From the NCBI GenBank assembly GCA_029624735.1, contig JARSSM010000016.1:193993-257992 (forward strand): DNA of 64,000 nucleotides, given 5' to 3'. Positions 28,495-35,783 of this stretch are shown in pieces (the first letter of the stretch is position 1; the number at the start of each line of letters is the position of its first letter). The translations under genes were made by a program, and so were the position numbers. Below the pieces are notes generated by a model. That model was given only the letters and a program-made list of their open reading frames with translations. It was not told the DNA's origin and ran no database searches. The stretch is from Defluviicoccus sp. (lineage in GTDB: Bacteria; Pseudomonadota; Alphaproteobacteria; Rhodospirillales; Defluviicoccaceae).

Positions 28495-29757
28495 TCAGCT
28501 CAGCGCCGGCCGCAGCGCCTGCTCGCGAATGGGTAGGTGCAGGACGGCGGCTGCAACGCCCAACACGATCGAGGCCAGCCAGATGGCATCGTAGGACCCG
28601 GTCCACGTGTAGACCACACCGCCCAGCCACACGCCCAGGAAGCTGCCGACCTGGTGGCTGAAGAAGACCAGCCCGAACAGGGTCGAAAGGTAGCGGACGC
28701 CGAAGATCTGGCCGATCAGGCCGCTCGTCAGCGGCACCGTGCCAAGCCACAACAGACCGATCGCGGCGGCAAAGGCGAGCACGGTCGTCTCGGTTTTCGG
28801 GACCGCGAGAAAGACGGCGATGGTCAGTGCGCGCACGGCGTAAAGGGTGAAAAGGAGGCGCTTCTTCGAGTAATGGCCGCCCAACAGGCCGCAGCCCCAG
28901 GTCCCGATGATGTTGAAGAAGCCGATCAGCGCCAGCGCCATCGCTGCCAGGGCAGGCGTCAGCCCAAGGTCTGACAGGTAGGACGGCAGGTGGACCGCGA
29001 TGAACACCACCTGGAAGCCGCAGACGAAGAAGCCGGCGTTCAGGTACCAGAAACCGCGATGGCGGCTGGCTTCCCGCAGCGCCGCCTGCAGCCCTCCCTC
29101 CGCAAGCGGGGATGACGCCTGCATCGGTTCCGTATTTGCGCCGGCAGCACTGGCGCGAACGAGAAGGAGGGCGAGCGGCGCCATTGCCGCCGCGAACCCG
29201 GCCATCACGAGAAAGGCTTGCGACCAGCCCAGCGCCGCGATCATCGCTTGGCCGACTGGGGCCATGGCGAACTGGCCGAACGACCCGCCGGCGCTCGCGA
29301 GGCCAAAGGCGGCGCTGCGGCGCTGCGGCGGCACCGCGCGACCGATCGCGCCCAACACGACGGCAAAACTGACGCTGCTCAGCCCCAAGCCAACCAGCAG
29401 GCCGGCCCCGGTCTGGAACATCGCATACGTTCCCGCAGATGCCATCAGCACCAGCCCGCCGGTGTAGGCGAAAGTGCCGGCGAGGAGGACCTTAAGCGCG
29501 CCAAAGCGGTCGGCAAGCGCGCCGGCGAACGGCTGCGCCGCCCCCCACAGGATGTTCTGCACCGCCATCGCGAGGCCGAACTGCTCGCGGCCGATGTCGA
29601 GGGCCAGACAAACCGGGCCCATGAACAGCCCGAAGGTCTGGCGGATGCCCATCGCCAGTGTGAGGATGAGGGCGCCGCTTGCGAGCGCCAGGAGTGCGCT
29701 CGTGCTAAGCCGGGACGCGGTGAGGCGGGCGGCTGTGGTGGCTGGCGGGGGAGTCAT
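28495..29757 (-). CDS. major facilitator superfamily transporter
   Basis: A 420-residue membrane protein with about 12 hydrophobic helices. The region ALADRFGALKVLLAG (between helices 2 and 3) is the MFS loop motif. Substrate is not deducible; the overall pattern resembles monocarboxylate or small-anion carriers. Start ATG 29757 overlaps the stop of the upstream phosphatase gene (ATGA), suggesting co-transcription. Confidence 0.82.
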   Translation of the reverse strand: MTPPPATTAARLTASRLSTSALLALASGALILTLAMGIRQTFGLFMGPVCLALDIGREQFGLAMAVQNILWGAAQPFAGALADRFGALKVLLAGTFAYTGGLVLMASAGTYAMFQTGAGLLVGLGLSSVSFAVVLGAIGRAVPPQRRSAAFGLASAGGSFGQFAMAPVGQAMIAALGWSQAFLVMAGFAAAMAPLALLLVRASAAGANTEPMQASSPLAEGGLQAALREASRHRGFWYLNAGFFVCGFQVVFIAVHLPSYLSDLGLTPALAAMALALIGFFNIIGTWGCGLLGGHYSKKRLLFTLYAVRALTIAVFLAVPKTETTVLAFAAAIGLLWLGTVPLTSGLIGQIFGVRYLSTLFGLVFFSHQVGSFLGVWLGGVVYTWTGSYDAIWLASIVLGVAAAVLHLPIREQALRPALS

Positions 29758-30515
29758 GTGTGCAGGAAGCGCAGTTGGGTGTCCTCCAAGACGGCGCAGG
29801 TCAGGCGGCCACTATAGAAGGCGCCGGTATCGATGCCGATACGGTTGCGGGCAACGACCGGTTCCGGCGTGATCGTGTGGCCGTGCACGATCCGGCGGCC
29901 GAAATCGGCCTCGGAGTGGAGGAAGGGGCCGCGGATCCAGAGCAGGTCCTGCGGCTCCTGACGGTCGAGTGGGCGGCCTGGCCGGACGCCGGCATGGACG
30001 AACAGATAGTCGCCTTCCTCATGCGAGAAGGAGAGGCTGTCGAGGAAGCCGCGGTGCGTCGACGGCACGGCCTCAATCAGACAGGTGCGTAGATGCTCGA
30101 GGTCGCGCTCGCTGGTGAGTGAACGTCCGGAAACGCCGTAGCTCCACAGCGTTGCGGTGCCGCCGTTGAAGAGCCACACCGGGTCGGGCGGTCCGTTGAG
30201 GAAGTCGAGCATCATTCGCTCATGGTTGCCCATCAGGTACACCCGCTCGAAACCCGCGAGCGGTTCGTTCAGCAGCATGTCGACCACTTCGAGCGAACCA
30301 GGGCCGCGATCGACATAATCGCCGAGATAGATGACGACCGGCCGGCAATCGGGCGCAAGGTTTGCCCGATCGTCGACGATCCGCCGATGCAACTCGCGCA
30401 GCAAATCGTCGCGGCCGTGAATGTCGCCAATCGCGTAAATCCGCCGCCCGGGCGGGACGCGGGCACTCCATCCACGGGGGGGTAAACCGGTCAACTCGAA
30501 CATAGGCGAGAGCAT
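29754..30515 (-). CDS. PPP-family serine/threonine phosphatase
   Basis: A 253-residue protein with all four PPP-family motifs: GDIHGRDD (about residues 29-36), GDYVDRG (about 66-72), GNHE (about 97-100), and a later HGHT-type HGHTITPE. These bind two metal ions. Members include the protein phosphatases PrpE/PphA and ApaH-like enzymes. The true start could be ATG 30515 or 30503; the TTG at 30539 is unlikely. The stop overlaps the start of the MFS gene. Confidence 0.83.
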   Translation of the reverse strand: MLSPMFELTGLPPRGWSARVPPGRRIYAIGDIHGRDDLLRELHRRIVDDRANLAPDCRPVVIYLGDYVDRGPGSLEVVDMLLNEPLAGFERVYLMGNHERMMLDFLNGPPDPVWLFNGGTATLWSYGVSGRSLTSERDLEHLRTCLIEAVPSTHRGFLDSLSFSHEEGDYLFVHAGVRPGRPLDRQEPQDLLWIRGPFLHSEADFGRRIVHGHTITPEPVVARNRIGIDTGAFYSGRLTCAVLEDTQLRFLHT

Positions 30516-30660
30516 GGGTCTGGTGGCAGCTGAGCGCAAGGCCGGGACCGGCGCGCCCCAGCTTGGCCGCCTTATCGCATCCGTAAACTTATGGCGCGCC
30601 TGGGAAAACGAAAGGGAAACTTAACGCCGGTGATGGAAAATTGTCCGCATCTTTCCCTGC

Positions 30661-31887
30661 TTGCCGCTGCTGATCGGGACCCGGGTGTTCAGCCAAGATG
30701 CCGTAGCCGGCTCAAAGTATGCGCTTCGTGAGCGACGCGAGCAGAGCCTGCGCGCGTACCTCGCGGTTGATACTTTCTCCCGCGGCGCCAGCTTCGCGGT
30801 CGTTGTCCACCTGTCGCGGGTCCCAATCATCAGCAGACAACCGAGTCTGCGGCGCTTTGCCATTGGTCTCCTGAACGGCATCAGCGTGCGCCGGGATGCG
30901 CGGCTGTTCACGCTCGCGCGTGGCGACGTCGCGCTGGTCTGCCCGGAGATGCCGGTCGATGAGGTCGATACCGTCCTGAAGCGCATCGGCGACATGTTCG
31001 GCATCGGTCGCGCAGCGTTGACCGGCGACGGGCGGGAGGCACTGTTCAGCTGGTTCGATCTCTCGCGGCCACAGGATGTTTCCGCGCTTGAGCAATGCGC
31101 GAGCGAAGCCGAGGCGGCCGTGGAGGAGGGCAATGCCGCCGCGCGCAGGCCGATCAGCGCGCGCGATGTCTCGATTATTGCCAAGACGCTGGAGACGCAG
31201 CCGGTCGCTCCCTTCATCCAGAGCCAACGGGCGGTGGCGCTCGCCGGTGCACAGGTTGGAACGCTCTTCTGCGAGACCTTCCTTTCGATCGGGGAGCTGC
31301 AGCGGGTTGTTGCGCCCGACATCGACCTGTTCGCAAAGCCGGCGCTGTTCCATTTCATCAGCCGCATCCTCGATCGCTGCATGTTGCGCTCGCTCGCCGA
31401 TAGCGGGCCGCAGTCGCTCAAGCCGATCAGCCTTAACCTCAACATCGGTACGCTGTTCACGCCGGAGTTCCGTCGTTTCGATCAGGTTTGGCACGGCGCT
31501 GCGCGGCCCGTGATCGAAATTCAGGTTGTCGACGCATTAACGGATACTGAGAGCTTCGCGATCGCGCGAGACGATCTCAAGGCACGCGGCTACCCGGTTC
31601 TGCTCGACGGTCTGACGCCGCTGCATCTCGCCGCGATCGACGTCGGCGGCTTACAGACCGACCTGATCAAGGTTGCCTGGTCGCGCCCGCAGATCGAAGC
31701 CCTGCGCCTGCGTGATCCGGACCTCTTGCGGCGGTGCATCGAAAAGGTGGGACGGGATCGGATTGTGCTCGGGCGGGTCGAAACAGAAGAGGCAATAGCA
31801 ACCGCGGTAGGGTTCGGCGTAACGCGCTTCCAGGGCTACTACATCGATCGCCTCATGCAAGCGATCGCAGCGAAGCGGCGGTCTTGA
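30661..31887 (+). CDS. degenerate GGDEF-EAL-like protein A
   Basis: About 408 residues; the start (TTG 30661, next GTG 30685) is uncertain. The N-terminal half includes LFTLARGDVALVCPEM, resembling the GGDEF core without its signature. The C-terminal half follows the EAL fold: ISLNLN (Asn ligand), VIEIQV (Glu), VLLDGL (Asp, but no DDFG), DLIKVAW (Lys), RVETEE, and FQGYYI (Gln). The EAL signature itself is replaced by CETFLS. It likely cannot hydrolyse c-di-GMP normally and may bind it or have a structural role. 16 bases before its paralogue. Confidence 0.62.
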   Translation: MPLLIGTRVFSQDAVAGSKYALRERREQSLRAYLAVDTFSRGASFAVVVHLSRVPIISRQPSLRRFAIGLLNGISVRRDARLFTLARGDVALVCPEMPVDEVDTVLKRIGDMFGIGRAALTGDGREALFSWFDLSRPQDVSALEQCASEAEAAVEEGNAAARRPISARDVSIIAKTLETQPVAPFIQSQRAVALAGAQVGTLFCETFLSIGELQRVVAPDIDLFAKPALFHFISRILDRCMLRSLADSGPQSLKPISLNLNIGTLFTPEFRRFDQVWHGAARPVIEIQVVDALTDTESFAIARDDLKARGYPVLLDGLTPLHLAAIDVGGLQTDLIKVAWSRPQIEALRLRDPDLLRRCIEKVGRDRIVLGRVETEEAIATAVGFGVTRFQGYYIDRLMQAIAAKRRS

Positions 31888-31903
31888 CCACCCGGAGGTG
31901 AAC

Positions 31904-33175
31904 GTGCCAGCCAGTTCGGTGGTCGATACGCGGTCCAAGGGTGCGGACGCCCTGCTTGGGGAGTATTTGCGCCGGCTGGAATCGCGCAAGGAAGGCCGGC
32001 TTGCTGTGCATGTCATGCTGTCGCGCCTGCGCCCGTTCAATCGGCGCGAGCATCACCTGAACGCGGCCCGGGCGGGTCTTGCCCAGCTGGCCGACGAGCG
32101 CCGGGGACAGTTGTTCGTCCTCGCCAATGCGGATCTGTTCTTCTTCTTCAGCAAGGATGTTGAGGGACTGGTCCGCACGGAGATCATGCGGGTGCGCTTC
32201 TTGTTCACCGAGGATCCGATCGTCGCCAAGGCCTCGGATACGGACGGGTTCATCACCTGGTATGCCGTCGATCGTCAGTATGATGCGCTGGTCCGGGCGG
32301 CGCGCGGGGCTTCGGACAGCAATGCCGCTGCACGCGGCGTGGTTGGCCGTGATGGCGCCAGGGCCGATCTCAAGGCACGGCAAAAGGCCAGTTCCGCGTT
32401 GACGCCGGAATTGCTTGATCGCATCGAAGCCGGGCTCGTGCAGGCAGACCTGTCGAGCCTCCTTCGCCGGCACGCGGTCTGCTCCGTTCCCAACGAGACC
32501 GCGCCGGAGCCGAAGTTCGTCGAGTGGACGGTCTGCATCAGCGACCTCGCCCAGACGATGCTGCCTCACTTTGACTTCGCCTCCGATCCGCTGTTGTTCC
32601 AGCATCTCACCGAGAGCCTGGACCGGCGCATGCTGGCGCTGTTGGCGAAGCCGGGCGGGCCGCTCGATGGCGGCGACATCAGCGTCAACCTCAACGTTGC
32701 AACATTGCTCTCCGAGCATTTCTTCACCTTCGACGAAAAACTGTTCACGGCCCGGCGCGGCTGCATCGTCATCGAACTCAAGCTTGCGGACATCGCGCAA
32801 GACCCGGAGAGCTATGAGTTCGCCCGCAAACTGGCCCAGGCAAAGGGTTACCGGTTGTGCCTTGACGGACTGACGCTGTGGACGTTCGGCCTCGTTGACC
32901 GCGGCCAGCTCGGCCTCGACTACCTAAAACTGAACTTCGACGCGCTGATGCTGGTGGAAGCCGAAGAGCGGCGGGCGTGGCTTGAGGAGGCGGTCGCGCG
33001 TACGGGTCCGGCGCATCTCATCTTGAGCCGCGTCGAGAACGCCGAGGGCGTGGCCTTCGGGCGTGCCGCTGGCGTGCAACTGTTCCAAGGCCGCCATATT
33101 GAACGGCTGCTGGCGGAGGCACGGCAGCGGCGGCAATATGTGCGGTTGAACCGGCGCGCAAGCGGCGACACATAA
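31904..33175 (+). CDS. degenerate GGDEF-EAL-like protein B
   Basis: 423 residues starting at GTG 31904, which has a perfect GGAGG five bases upstream. It is a paralogue of the preceding gene. The EAL-domain ligand pattern recurs in order: ISVNLN, IVIELK, LCLDGL, DYLKLN, RVENAEG, LFQGRH. The EAL position reads FVEWTV. The N-terminal half has QLFVLANADLFFFF, an altered GGDEF-like strand. Both proteins share the loss of DDFG, suggesting a conserved non-catalytic task rather than decay. Direct repeat of the gene, not a frameshifted copy. Confidence 0.6.
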   Translation: MPASSVVDTRSKGADALLGEYLRRLESRKEGRLAVHVMLSRLRPFNRREHHLNAARAGLAQLADERRGQLFVLANADLFFFFSKDVEGLVRTEIMRVRFLFTEDPIVAKASDTDGFITWYAVDRQYDALVRAARGASDSNAAARGVVGRDGARADLKARQKASSALTPELLDRIEAGLVQADLSSLLRRHAVCSVPNETAPEPKFVEWTVCISDLAQTMLPHFDFASDPLLFQHLTESLDRRMLALLAKPGGPLDGGDISVNLNVATLLSEHFFTFDEKLFTARRGCIVIELKLADIAQDPESYEFARKLAQAKGYRLCLDGLTLWTFGLVDRGQLGLDYLKLNFDALMLVEAEERRAWLEEAVARTGPAHLILSRVENAEGVAFGRAAGVQLFQGRHIERLLAEARQRRQYVRLNRRASGDT

Positions 33176-33267: not shown

Positions 33268-34044
33268 ATGCCCCGTCTCACCCCTGTGCAGCCTGCCGAC
33301 GCCATCGTTGCGGACCGCCTCGTCAAGCGCTTCGGTGCGCTCACCGCCGTCGACGGGCTCAGCTTTAGGGTTCGCACCGGCTCGACGACCGGCCTTCTCG
33401 GCGGCAACGGCGCTGGCAAGACGACGACGCTGTCGATGCTGTTGGGCATCGTGCTGCCGAGCTCGGGCAGTGTGCATATCCTCGGCACCGACATGGTCAA
33501 GCGCCGCTATGACGTCCTGCAGCGGATGAACTTCTCGTCCCCTTACGTCGATCTGCCGCGGCGCTTGAGCGTTGCCGAGAACCTGACCGTGTACGGCTGG
33601 CTCTATGGTGTCAGTGATCTCAAGCGCCGGATCCGCCTGCTGGCCGAGGATCTGCAGCTGACAGCGTTCCTCGACCGGCCGACCGGCGATCTTTCGGCCG
33701 GCCAACGCACCCGCGTCGCGCTTGCGAAGGCGCTCCTCAACGATCCGGAGGTGCTGCTGCTGGACGAGCCGACCGCATCGCTTGATCCGGACACCGCCGA
33801 CTGGGTGCGCGGCTACATCGAAGCGTTCCGCGGCCGTGTCAATGCCACCATCCTCATCGCCTCGCACAACATGGCCGAGGTCGAGCGGCTGTGCGACGAG
33901 GTTCTGATGCTGCGCGACGGCCGCATCGTCGATCGCGGCGCGCCGCAGGAGCTGATCGGCCGCTACGGCCGGCGGACGCTCGAGGAAGTCTTTCTCGACG
34001 TCGCCCGCAACCGCCGGGTTGCCGTGCAGGCTGCTGGGAGCTGA
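33268..34044 (+). CDS. ABC transporter ATP-binding protein
   Basis: A 258-residue ATPase with Walker A GGNGAGKTTT (about residues 47-56), the Q-loop region, the signature DLSAGQRTRVALAKALL, Walker B VLLLDEP, and the switch His in ASHNMAEV. It partners with the ABC-2 permease 6 bases downstream. NodI/DrrA-type exporters have this organisation. Substrate unknown, perhaps an envelope polymer or lipid. Confidence 0.9.
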   Translation: MPRLTPVQPADAIVADRLVKRFGALTAVDGLSFRVRTGSTTGLLGGNGAGKTTTLSMLLGIVLPSSGSVHILGTDMVKRRYDVLQRMNFSSPYVDLPRRLSVAENLTVYGWLYGVSDLKRRIRLLAEDLQLTAFLDRPTGDLSAGQRTRVALAKALLNDPEVLLLDEPTASLDPDTADWVRGYIEAFRGRVNATILIASHNMAEVERLCDEVLMLRDGRIVDRGAPQELIGRYGRRTLEEVFLDVARNRRVAVQAAGS

Positions 34045-34050
34045 GGGCCG

Positions 34051-34860
34051 ATGCACGGGTGCGATCTCTTCTCCTTTCGGCGGGTCGGCGCCTTCTTGCT
34101 ACGCCACCTGTACGTGCTCAAGCGATCGTGGCCGCGGCTGCTCGAACTCGCCTACTGGCCGTTCGTGCAGATGATCCTGTGGGGGTTCATCACCACGTTT
34201 CTGGTGCAGAACTCAAACTGGGTGGCGCAGGCATCGGGCGTGCTGATCAGCGCTGTCTTGTTATGGGATGTGCTGTTCCGCGCCAATCTCGGCGTCTCGG
34301 TGACTTTCCTTGAGGAGATGTGGGCCCGCAACCTGGGCCAGCTGTTCGTCAGCCCGTTGCGCGCCTACGAACTGGTGGCGGCGCTGTGGCTGATGAGCTG
34401 CATCCGCACGGTGATCAGCGTGCTGCCGGCGGCCTTCCTGGCGGTGCCGCTATTTGGCGTCTCGGTGTTCGCGCTCGGGCCGGTGCTGGCCGCTCTGTTC
34501 GCCAACCTGCTGCTGTTCGGTTGCAGCGTCGGCCTCGCCATCGCCGCGCTCGTGCTCCGGTTCGGGCTCGGCGCCGAGAGCCTGGCCTGGGTCGCGGTGT
34601 TTGCGCTGGCGCCGTTGAGCGGCGTCTACTATCCGGTCAGCGTGCTGCCGGACTGGCTCATGCCGATCGCACTCGCGCTGCCCTCGGTGCACGTGTTCGA
34701 GGGCATGCGCGCGGTCTTGTTCGAGAATGCGCAGCGCTGGGATCTGGCCGGGCTCGCGTTCGCCCTCAACCTCGTCTACGGGCTTGCCAGCACGCTGTTC
34801 TTCTTGCGCATGGTGCGGGTCGCGCGCATGCGCGGGCTGTTGCTGCAGCAGGGCGAGTGA
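34051..34860 (+). CDS. ABC-2 type transporter permease
   Basis: A 269-residue integral membrane protein with about six helices and the ABC-2 family C-terminal region PLSGVYYPVSVLPDWLMPIALALPSVHVFEG. Preceded by GAGGG. Together with the preceding ATPase it makes a complete two-gene exporter. No periplasmic partner is visible. Confidence 0.88.
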   Translation: MHGCDLFSFRRVGAFLLRHLYVLKRSWPRLLELAYWPFVQMILWGFITTFLVQNSNWVAQASGVLISAVLLWDVLFRANLGVSVTFLEEMWARNLGQLFVSPLRAYELVAALWLMSCIRTVISVLPAAFLAVPLFGVSVFALGPVLAALFANLLLFGCSVGLAIAALVLRFGLGAESLAWVAVFALAPLSGVYYPVSVLPDWLMPIALALPSVHVFEGMRAVLFENAQRWDLAGLAFALNLVYGLASTLFFLRMVRVARMRGLLLQQGE

Positions 34861-34889: not shown

Positions 34890-35783
34890 TTAGCCGTCCG
34901 GGCGATCAAGGACTTCGATCTGCTCGGGATGATCGGCCTCGATGGTGGGGCCGTTGTAGCTGTCGAGCCAGCCGCGCGCGCGCACGGTCCGCCCTTCAAG
35001 CGCGAGGAGATCGAGGCCCGCCTGCTCAAAGAGTTTCAGGTCGCGGGCGGCGATGGTGATGGTGAAGTCCGTTCGCCAATCGGCGCCGAAATTCAGGTAC
35101 ACGTGGTTCTTGACCCGTGCCGCCTTGCGAACGGTGCCTTGGACGAGCTGGAAGGTGCCGATGTCGGCGGCGTCGATCGCATCCGCCTTGCGGATGGCGT
35201 AAAAGGGATGGCGCCAGATGCCGCGCCGGGCCGCCCGCGCTTCACGTTCGAGGGCAAACATCTCGCGTGCGCGGCCACGATTGTCGGCGAAGGTGTAGAC
35301 GCGCGCGAAGCCGGTCCGCAGCATCTCGCCCTGCAGCCACAGGCCGTCGCTGCGCTCAAGATGCGCCAGCAGGCGGCGGTGGCGATCCATGCCCTGGCCG
35401 GTGCGGATCAGGGTGACCTCACGGTTTTGGGCGATGGCGGCGAGCGCTGACCGCGCCTCATCGGCAAGCGGCCAGGTCTTGAAGCCGGGCCGGGACAGAG
35501 GCAGCTTTGGCGCCTGAATGCCGACCAGGCGCACCTCCCGCGCGCCGTCGATGGCGCGCTCAAGGACAACCGTATCGCCGTCGATGACCTCGACCACGCG
35601 CGCGCTCGGGGTGCTGGAAGGCGGCGCGGCTTGGCCGGACCAGGCTGGTGCCAACAGCGCGATCAGGGCCGCGATGCATGCAAACGCGGCCAGTCTGGGC
35701 GGGCCGCTGGCCACAGATCCATGGCGCCGCGCTGGCCACGGCAACGAAAAGACGCTGGATCGCACCCGAGGGCAAAGGAGCAC
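34890..35783 (-). CDS. exported thermonuclease-family protein
   Basis: A 297-residue protein with an N-terminal hydrophobic signal (about residues 30-48) and a staphylococcal-nuclease-like domain: VIDGDTVVLE, EVRLVGIQAPKL and the later RTGFARVYTFADN. The GDT aspartate of the family is present. The C-terminal about 90 residues form an extra domain. Likely a secreted or periplasmic nuclease, but catalytic Arg placement cannot be checked by eye. Confidence 0.75.
   Translation of the reverse strand: MLLCPRVRSSVFSLPWPARRHGSVASGPPRLAAFACIAALIALLAPAWSGQAAPPSSTPSARVVEVIDGDTVVLERAIDGAREVRLVGIQAPKLPLSRPGFKTWPLADEARSALAAIAQNREVTLIRTGQGMDRHRRLLAHLERSDGLWLQGEMLRTGFARVYTFADNRGRAREMFALEREARAARRGIWRHPFYAIRKADAIDAADIGTFQLVQGTVRKAARVKNHVYLNFGADWRTDFTITIAARDLKLFEQAGLDLLALEGRTVRARGWLDSYNGPTIEADHPEQIEVLDRPDG

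Follow-up and report, generated by a model that had tools for sequence, protein, structure and literature searches.

Two adjacent genes of Defluviicoccus sp., here called P1 and P2, encode proteins in which both the GGDEF-like and the EAL-like domain have lost their catalytic signature residues, as in receptors of the LapD/FimX type. Judged from sequence and structural models, they are most likely catalytically dead c-di-GMP-linked receptors or scaffolds. They belong to a family for which we found no description in the open-access literature. Few families show a fixed, ordered loss pattern that spans an entire bacterial class. Here the loss divides cleanly between the metal sites M1 and M2 of the EAL domain, and the family offers a natural experiment on whether a ligand can be bound with M1 alone.

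The following features of the window (the whole stretch of 64,000 nucleotides that was analysed) are referred to below.

29754 to 30539, minus strand: gene for a calcineurin-like metallophosphatase, divergent, a recurrent neighbour in the neighbourhood survey
30661 to 31887, plus strand: P1, upstream paralogue, degenerate GGDEF-EAL protein of 408 amino acids, orthologue of the 'up' clade
30781 to 31080, plus strand: predicted GGDEF-like domain of P1, signature ARGDV
31153 to 31851, plus strand: predicted EAL-like barrel of P1, with the M1-type residues E205, N259, E286 and D316 kept and Gly, Ala and Gly at the M2-type positions
31894 to 31898, plus strand: GGAGG, putative ribosome-binding site of P2
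31898 to 33175, plus strand: P2, downstream paralogue, degenerate GGDEF-EAL protein of 425 amino acids, orthologue of the 'down' clade
31985 to 32317, plus strand: predicted GGDEF-like domain of P2, signature NADLF
32393 to 33106, plus strand: predicted EAL-like barrel of P2, with the M1-type residues E209, N264, E293 and D323 kept, G324, N346 and S377 at the M2-type positions, and R378 after the lost Glu of EGVE
33268 to 34044, plus strand: ATPase of an ABC exporter (DrrA/NodI-like), 92 bp downstream of P2, a recurrent but not obligatory neighbour
34051 to 34860, plus strand: ABC-2 membrane subunit of the same exporter

P1 and P2 lie head to tail on the plus strand with a gap of 10 bp. A preliminary description had presented them as tandem paralogues, and this was borne out: both open reading frames are present and their products are 30% identical over ~390 residues (E 4e-32). 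The start codon of P1, a TTG, is uncertain. The reading frame of P2 opens with GTG at 31898, and the GTG at 31904, preceded by GGAGG at a distance of 5 nt, is the likelier start. As this GGAGG follows just past the end of P1, P2 is probably translated from the P1 transcript, and the two genes thus probably share one transcript. No fused sensor or DNA-binding domain was found in either protein.

Pfam EAL covers only the C-terminal part of the proteins, with E 3.6e-9 for P2 (above the cut-off) and 7.8e-4 for P1 (below it). Pfam GGDEF (PF00990) has no match in P1 or P2 at E up to 10, and ARGDV and NADLF depart from the GG[DE]EF signature of diguanylate cyclases. No NCBIfam family covers P1 or P2; P2 weakly matches CsrD (E 0.15, far below the cut-off). 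Searching solved structures by sequence gave nothing for either protein.

AlphaFold2 models built from 28-sequence alignments reached a mean pLDDT of 86 for P2 and 82 for P1. In Foldseek, both models align end to end with GGDEF-EAL proteins (E ~1e-11 to 1e-12), and in VIA-align the EAL part of both gives Z 16-18 over 210-237 residues. LapD and FimX are among the best-ranked VIA-align matches, but they are tied with active enzymes. On the strength of the predicted EAL-type barrel, P1 and P2 belong to the EAL fold superfamily, and the structure prediction proposed as a check in the preliminary description did not yield a fold unrelated to EAL. In the models, the strands and helices of the N-terminal domains follow one another in a GGDEF-like order. 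Their GGDEF identity rests on this order and on Foldseek, which spans both domains; the VIA-align rows mostly comprise the EAL part and hardly cover them.

The EAL motif had been described as replaced by CETFLS in P1 and FVEWTV in P2. Ala-Leu-x-Arg has indeed changed, but the Glu has probably been kept. Automatic aligners disagree on its place, and MAFFT puts the canonical Glu elsewhere, in a gap. In the P2 model, E209 sits on the second barrel strand (204-212), straight after the first strand (189-196), which bears the conserved Gln of the YQP motif, here His192. The spacing between E209 and the Asn is 55 residues, compared with 59 in ordinary EAL domains, and in 26 unforced HMM alignments E209 lies 3 residues off the extrapolated position, with the same offset each time. 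Because of the strand order, the spacing to the Asn and HMM alignments that agree within 3 residues, E205 of P1 (in CETF) and E209 of P2 (in VEWT) are likely the Glu of the EAL motif. This position is conserved in 97 of 103 relatives.

The catalytic positions were mapped in those 103 members, which come from 78 loci. In PA3825 (PMC5301497), the Glu of EAL, the Asn and Asp130 bind M1 together with the first Asp of DDFG, whose second Asp is an M2 ligand along with Asp183; Glu217 joins these two in the calcium form. We set Asp130 equivalent to the first Glu of ELTE, Asp183 to the Asp of KID and Glu217 to the first Glu of EGVE. The M1 quartet of Glu, Asn, Glu and Asp is complete in 94 of the 103 members, P1 and P2 included, whereas an acid at the M2 positions is left in only three, very divergent members. 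The Lys is kept in 98 members and the Gln of QG in 99; 92 have an acid at the second EGVE position, and in 85 an Arg follows the lost EGVE Glu. At the position of the EALxR Arg, four residues after the EAL Glu, nearly every member has Ser or Ala; over the pair and most of its relatives the residues are Ser, Ala or Cys, and in these proteins the second Glu of ELTE in loop 6 is likewise replaced by non-acidic residues. Three conserved residues, D298, W347 and R378, are family-specific and not found in canonical EAL proteins. In P2 of this genome, the otherwise conserved Gln192 is replaced by His and Trp347 by Phe. The residue pattern largely recurs in ten more distant sequences, one of them from Azospirillum brasilense Sp7 (NZ_CP012915.1).

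These counts agree with much of what had been noticed at first. The Asn, Glu, Asp, Lys and Gln of an EAL domain are all present in P1 and P2, and the suggested tally of ligand positions in homologues showed the pocket residues to be conserved in ~100 relatives. DDFG is indeed changed to LDGL in both proteins; its first Asp is retained and the second is gone. The losses ascribed to the pair do occur in both copies, but they are not specific to it: they are family-wide, and KID has lost its Asp and EGVE its first Glu as well.

By their residues, P1 and P2 have the M1 ligands of an active EAL phosphodiesterase and lack the M2 ligands, the Arg of EALxR and the second Glu of ELTE. Active phosphodiesterases (PA3825, RocR, PdeA/CC3396) share with them the barrel fold and the M1 ligand set; unlike these enzymes, P1 and P2 are without the second Asp of DDFG, the Asp of KID and the first Glu of EGVE. 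Since EAL catalysis requires at least two metals (PMC5301497), members of the family are almost certainly not c-di-GMP phosphodiesterases, and their GGDEF signature is lost too. The M1 set, the Lys and the Gln are strictly retained, which suggests a putative site for a ligand; the simplest candidates are c-di-GMP or pGpG bound together with one metal. A complete M1 site with its Lys, and the Asp or Glu kept at the second EGVE position, would also suit an enzyme of altered chemistry that hydrolyses another substrate, such as pGpG or another (di)nucleotide, with a single metal. We consider this improbable, as every M2-binding, water-activating acid is lost and the two-metal requirement of known EAL catalysis speaks against it.

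Degenerate GGDEF-EAL proteins are known receptors. LapD of Pseudomonas fluorescens (PDB 3pjw/3pjt), in which both domains are catalytically degenerate as in P1 and P2, is the top-ranked fold match (Z 18 for P2, with 212-222 residues aligned; Z 17.7 for P1, to Vibrio LapD). Unlike P1 and P2, it is a membrane receptor with a HAMP and a periplasmic output domain. Its GGDEF domain forms a lid over the EAL pocket and shifts on ligand binding, and its R450 lies at the centre of the c-di-GMP site; LapD lacks the EAL Glu (KVL) but has the Arg, the reverse of the present family (PMC3032553). In Bd1971, R182, which we take as the equivalent of the EALxR Arg, binds phosphate. The EAL domain of FimX is likewise inactive and highly similar in fold (Z 16-17.7); it lacks the DDFGTG motif that metal binding requires (PMC5301497), whereas the family of P1 and P2 retains the first Asp and the full M1 set.

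We give an even chance to the reading that the family consists of soluble, dead GGDEF-EAL proteins which bind c-di-GMP or a related nucleotide through one metal without cleaving it. The EAL barrel would hold the nucleotide via the M1 metal, and the Arg after the lost EGVE Glu may stand in for the second metal. The ligand state would shift the seating of the GGDEF-like lid on the barrel and so alter contacts with a partner, with ligand, partner and output as we infer them here. P1 and P2, expressed from a single transcript, would then work as a linked pair of receptors. Sensing of c-di-GMP is plausible given the kept M1 site and the occurrence of the family only in genomes with GGDEF proteins (see below). 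The family-wide loss of the phosphate-contacting EALxR Arg counts against ordinary c-di-GMP binding, and the changes at Gln192 and Trp347 count against a receptor role of P2 in this particular genome.

Some inactive EAL-fold proteins, such as CsrD and YdiV, work by protein or RNA contacts; CsrD is membrane-bound and YdiV consists of EAL only. P1 and P2 are catalytically dead like these two and have no sequence relation to them beyond the EAL fold. In the leading rival explanation, P1 and P2 would similarly be docking scaffolds that bind no nucleotide: the barrel surface would bind a regulator, an RNase or a transporter subunit, and the M1 residues would be structural. The joint loss of the EALxR Arg and M2, the conserved residues foreign to canonical EAL proteins and the lack of a fused sensor or DNA-binding domain all fit this proposal. 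We hold it to be possible, though doubtful, because even among very distant members the four metal ligands, the Lys, the Gln and the second-position acid of EGVE show ~90% conservation or more, beyond what a scaffold needs, and because the family is found only alongside GGDEF genes.

In a maximum-likelihood tree, all upstream copies lie together to the same side of a weakly supported branch (46/87), and the downstream copies, bar one long-branched row, fall inside a 100/100 group beside single-copy genes. The simplest history is a single ancient duplication, with gene order kept since. Because the single-copy genes show the same losses, the change in DDFG should be older than the duplication, and the identical change in P1 and P2 is therefore inherited. 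Independent decay of both copies is rejected, as the tree points to one duplication after the losses. The shared LDGL had been taken as a sign of a preserved non-catalytic function. Such a function is supported by the predicted GGDEF-EAL fold, by the pocket residues of ~100 relatives and by retention of the losses under purifying selection, but not by two independent changes. Measured against L009, the closest relative with 94-96% identity, dN/dS is 0.11 (P1) and 0.10 (P2). These values, together with open frames, conservation throughout the class and maintenance in streamlined genomes, in practice refute the idea of a functionless, decaying pseudogene pair. The lost catalytic residues and the long branches of both copies in this lineage might hint at such decay; its probability is negligible.

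The family was matched in 90 of 289 alphaproteobacterial genomes sampled. One match (G032) was set aside because it is the ordinary EAL gene of its genome. In a phylum-wide sample of 299 genomes, every matching genome falls in the same class. GGDEF proteins are present in all 89 family genomes, compared with 117 of 200 others (Fisher p 6e-17, uncorrected for phylogeny). Among genomes of at most 2 Mb, they occur in 22 of 22 with the family versus 34 of the 50 listed without it (p 0.0016), a conservative partial count that is uncorrected for phylogeny and leaves out 63 GGDEF-negative genomes. The co-occurrence could instead reflect general regulatory complexity.

Three genomes of one taxonomic family (G047, G172 and G268), rated 100% complete and 1.4-1.7 Mb in size, all carry the pair. 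Each has one or two strong GGDEF matches and one HD-GYP protein; PilZ gave no match in them, and EAL none besides the pair. Should these small-genome cells respond to c-di-GMP, the pair would be a candidate for the effector. In its most specific form, the one-metal reading would have an EAL phosphodiesterase turn into a sensor with an Arg in place of the second metal, duplicate once, become co-transcribed and serve as the main c-di-GMP effector of streamlined alphaproteobacteria that lack PilZ and ordinary EAL proteins. So complete a scenario seems unlikely. As a separate observation, the c-di-GMP network of the three genomes is minimal, with no candidate effector beyond the pair among the EAL and PilZ matches.

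The family is testable in cultured bacteria. Terasakiella pusilla DSM 6293 carries an intact pair, and a member is encoded on plasmid p1 of Azospirillum brasilense Sp7, a genetically tractable, plant-associated bacterium (NZ_CP012915.1; L165 2501-3214), at a place where the PLSDB table lists no gene.

The adjoining ABC-2 exporter had been put forward as a further clue to function. It is a recurrent neighbour, but lies within ~5 kb of the gene in only 16 of 78 loci; being absent near most relatives, it is a weak clue, and the neighbourhood survey rules it out as an obligatory partner. The order metallophosphatase, EAL-like gene, exporter recurs in several Rhodospirillales. That this exporter pair is found downstream of the EAL-like gene in several lineages, in one case (L061) after a single-copy gene, might speak for a dedicated regulator of this exporter. 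We regard this as very improbable in view of the low count and of the other members that adjoin cobalamin, RegAB or sugar-nucleotide genes. In these other lineages, with genes named by eye, RegA/RegB stand between the EAL-like gene and the exporter, cobalamin genes come after the EAL-like gene, or heptose and UDP-sugar genes lie upstream.

Several details of these neighbourhoods may be recorded. In L064, L070, L077, L089, L090 and L099, a sensor kinase and response regulator resembling RegB/RegA, again named by eye and not present in the window, are placed next to the EAL-like gene and the ABC-2 exporter or in the space that separates them. Genes resembling HldE, GmhA and UDP-glucuronate decarboxylase occur upstream on the opposite strand in L013, L016, L017, L021, L022, L024, L058 and L067, some of which have CobT, CobS, CobC and CobD downstream. 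In the window, a gene for a staphylococcal-nuclease-like protein (34890-35783, minus strand) adjoins the exporter and is kept in L009; in L071 a related nuclease gene and a prolyl aminopeptidase gene are found near the family member.
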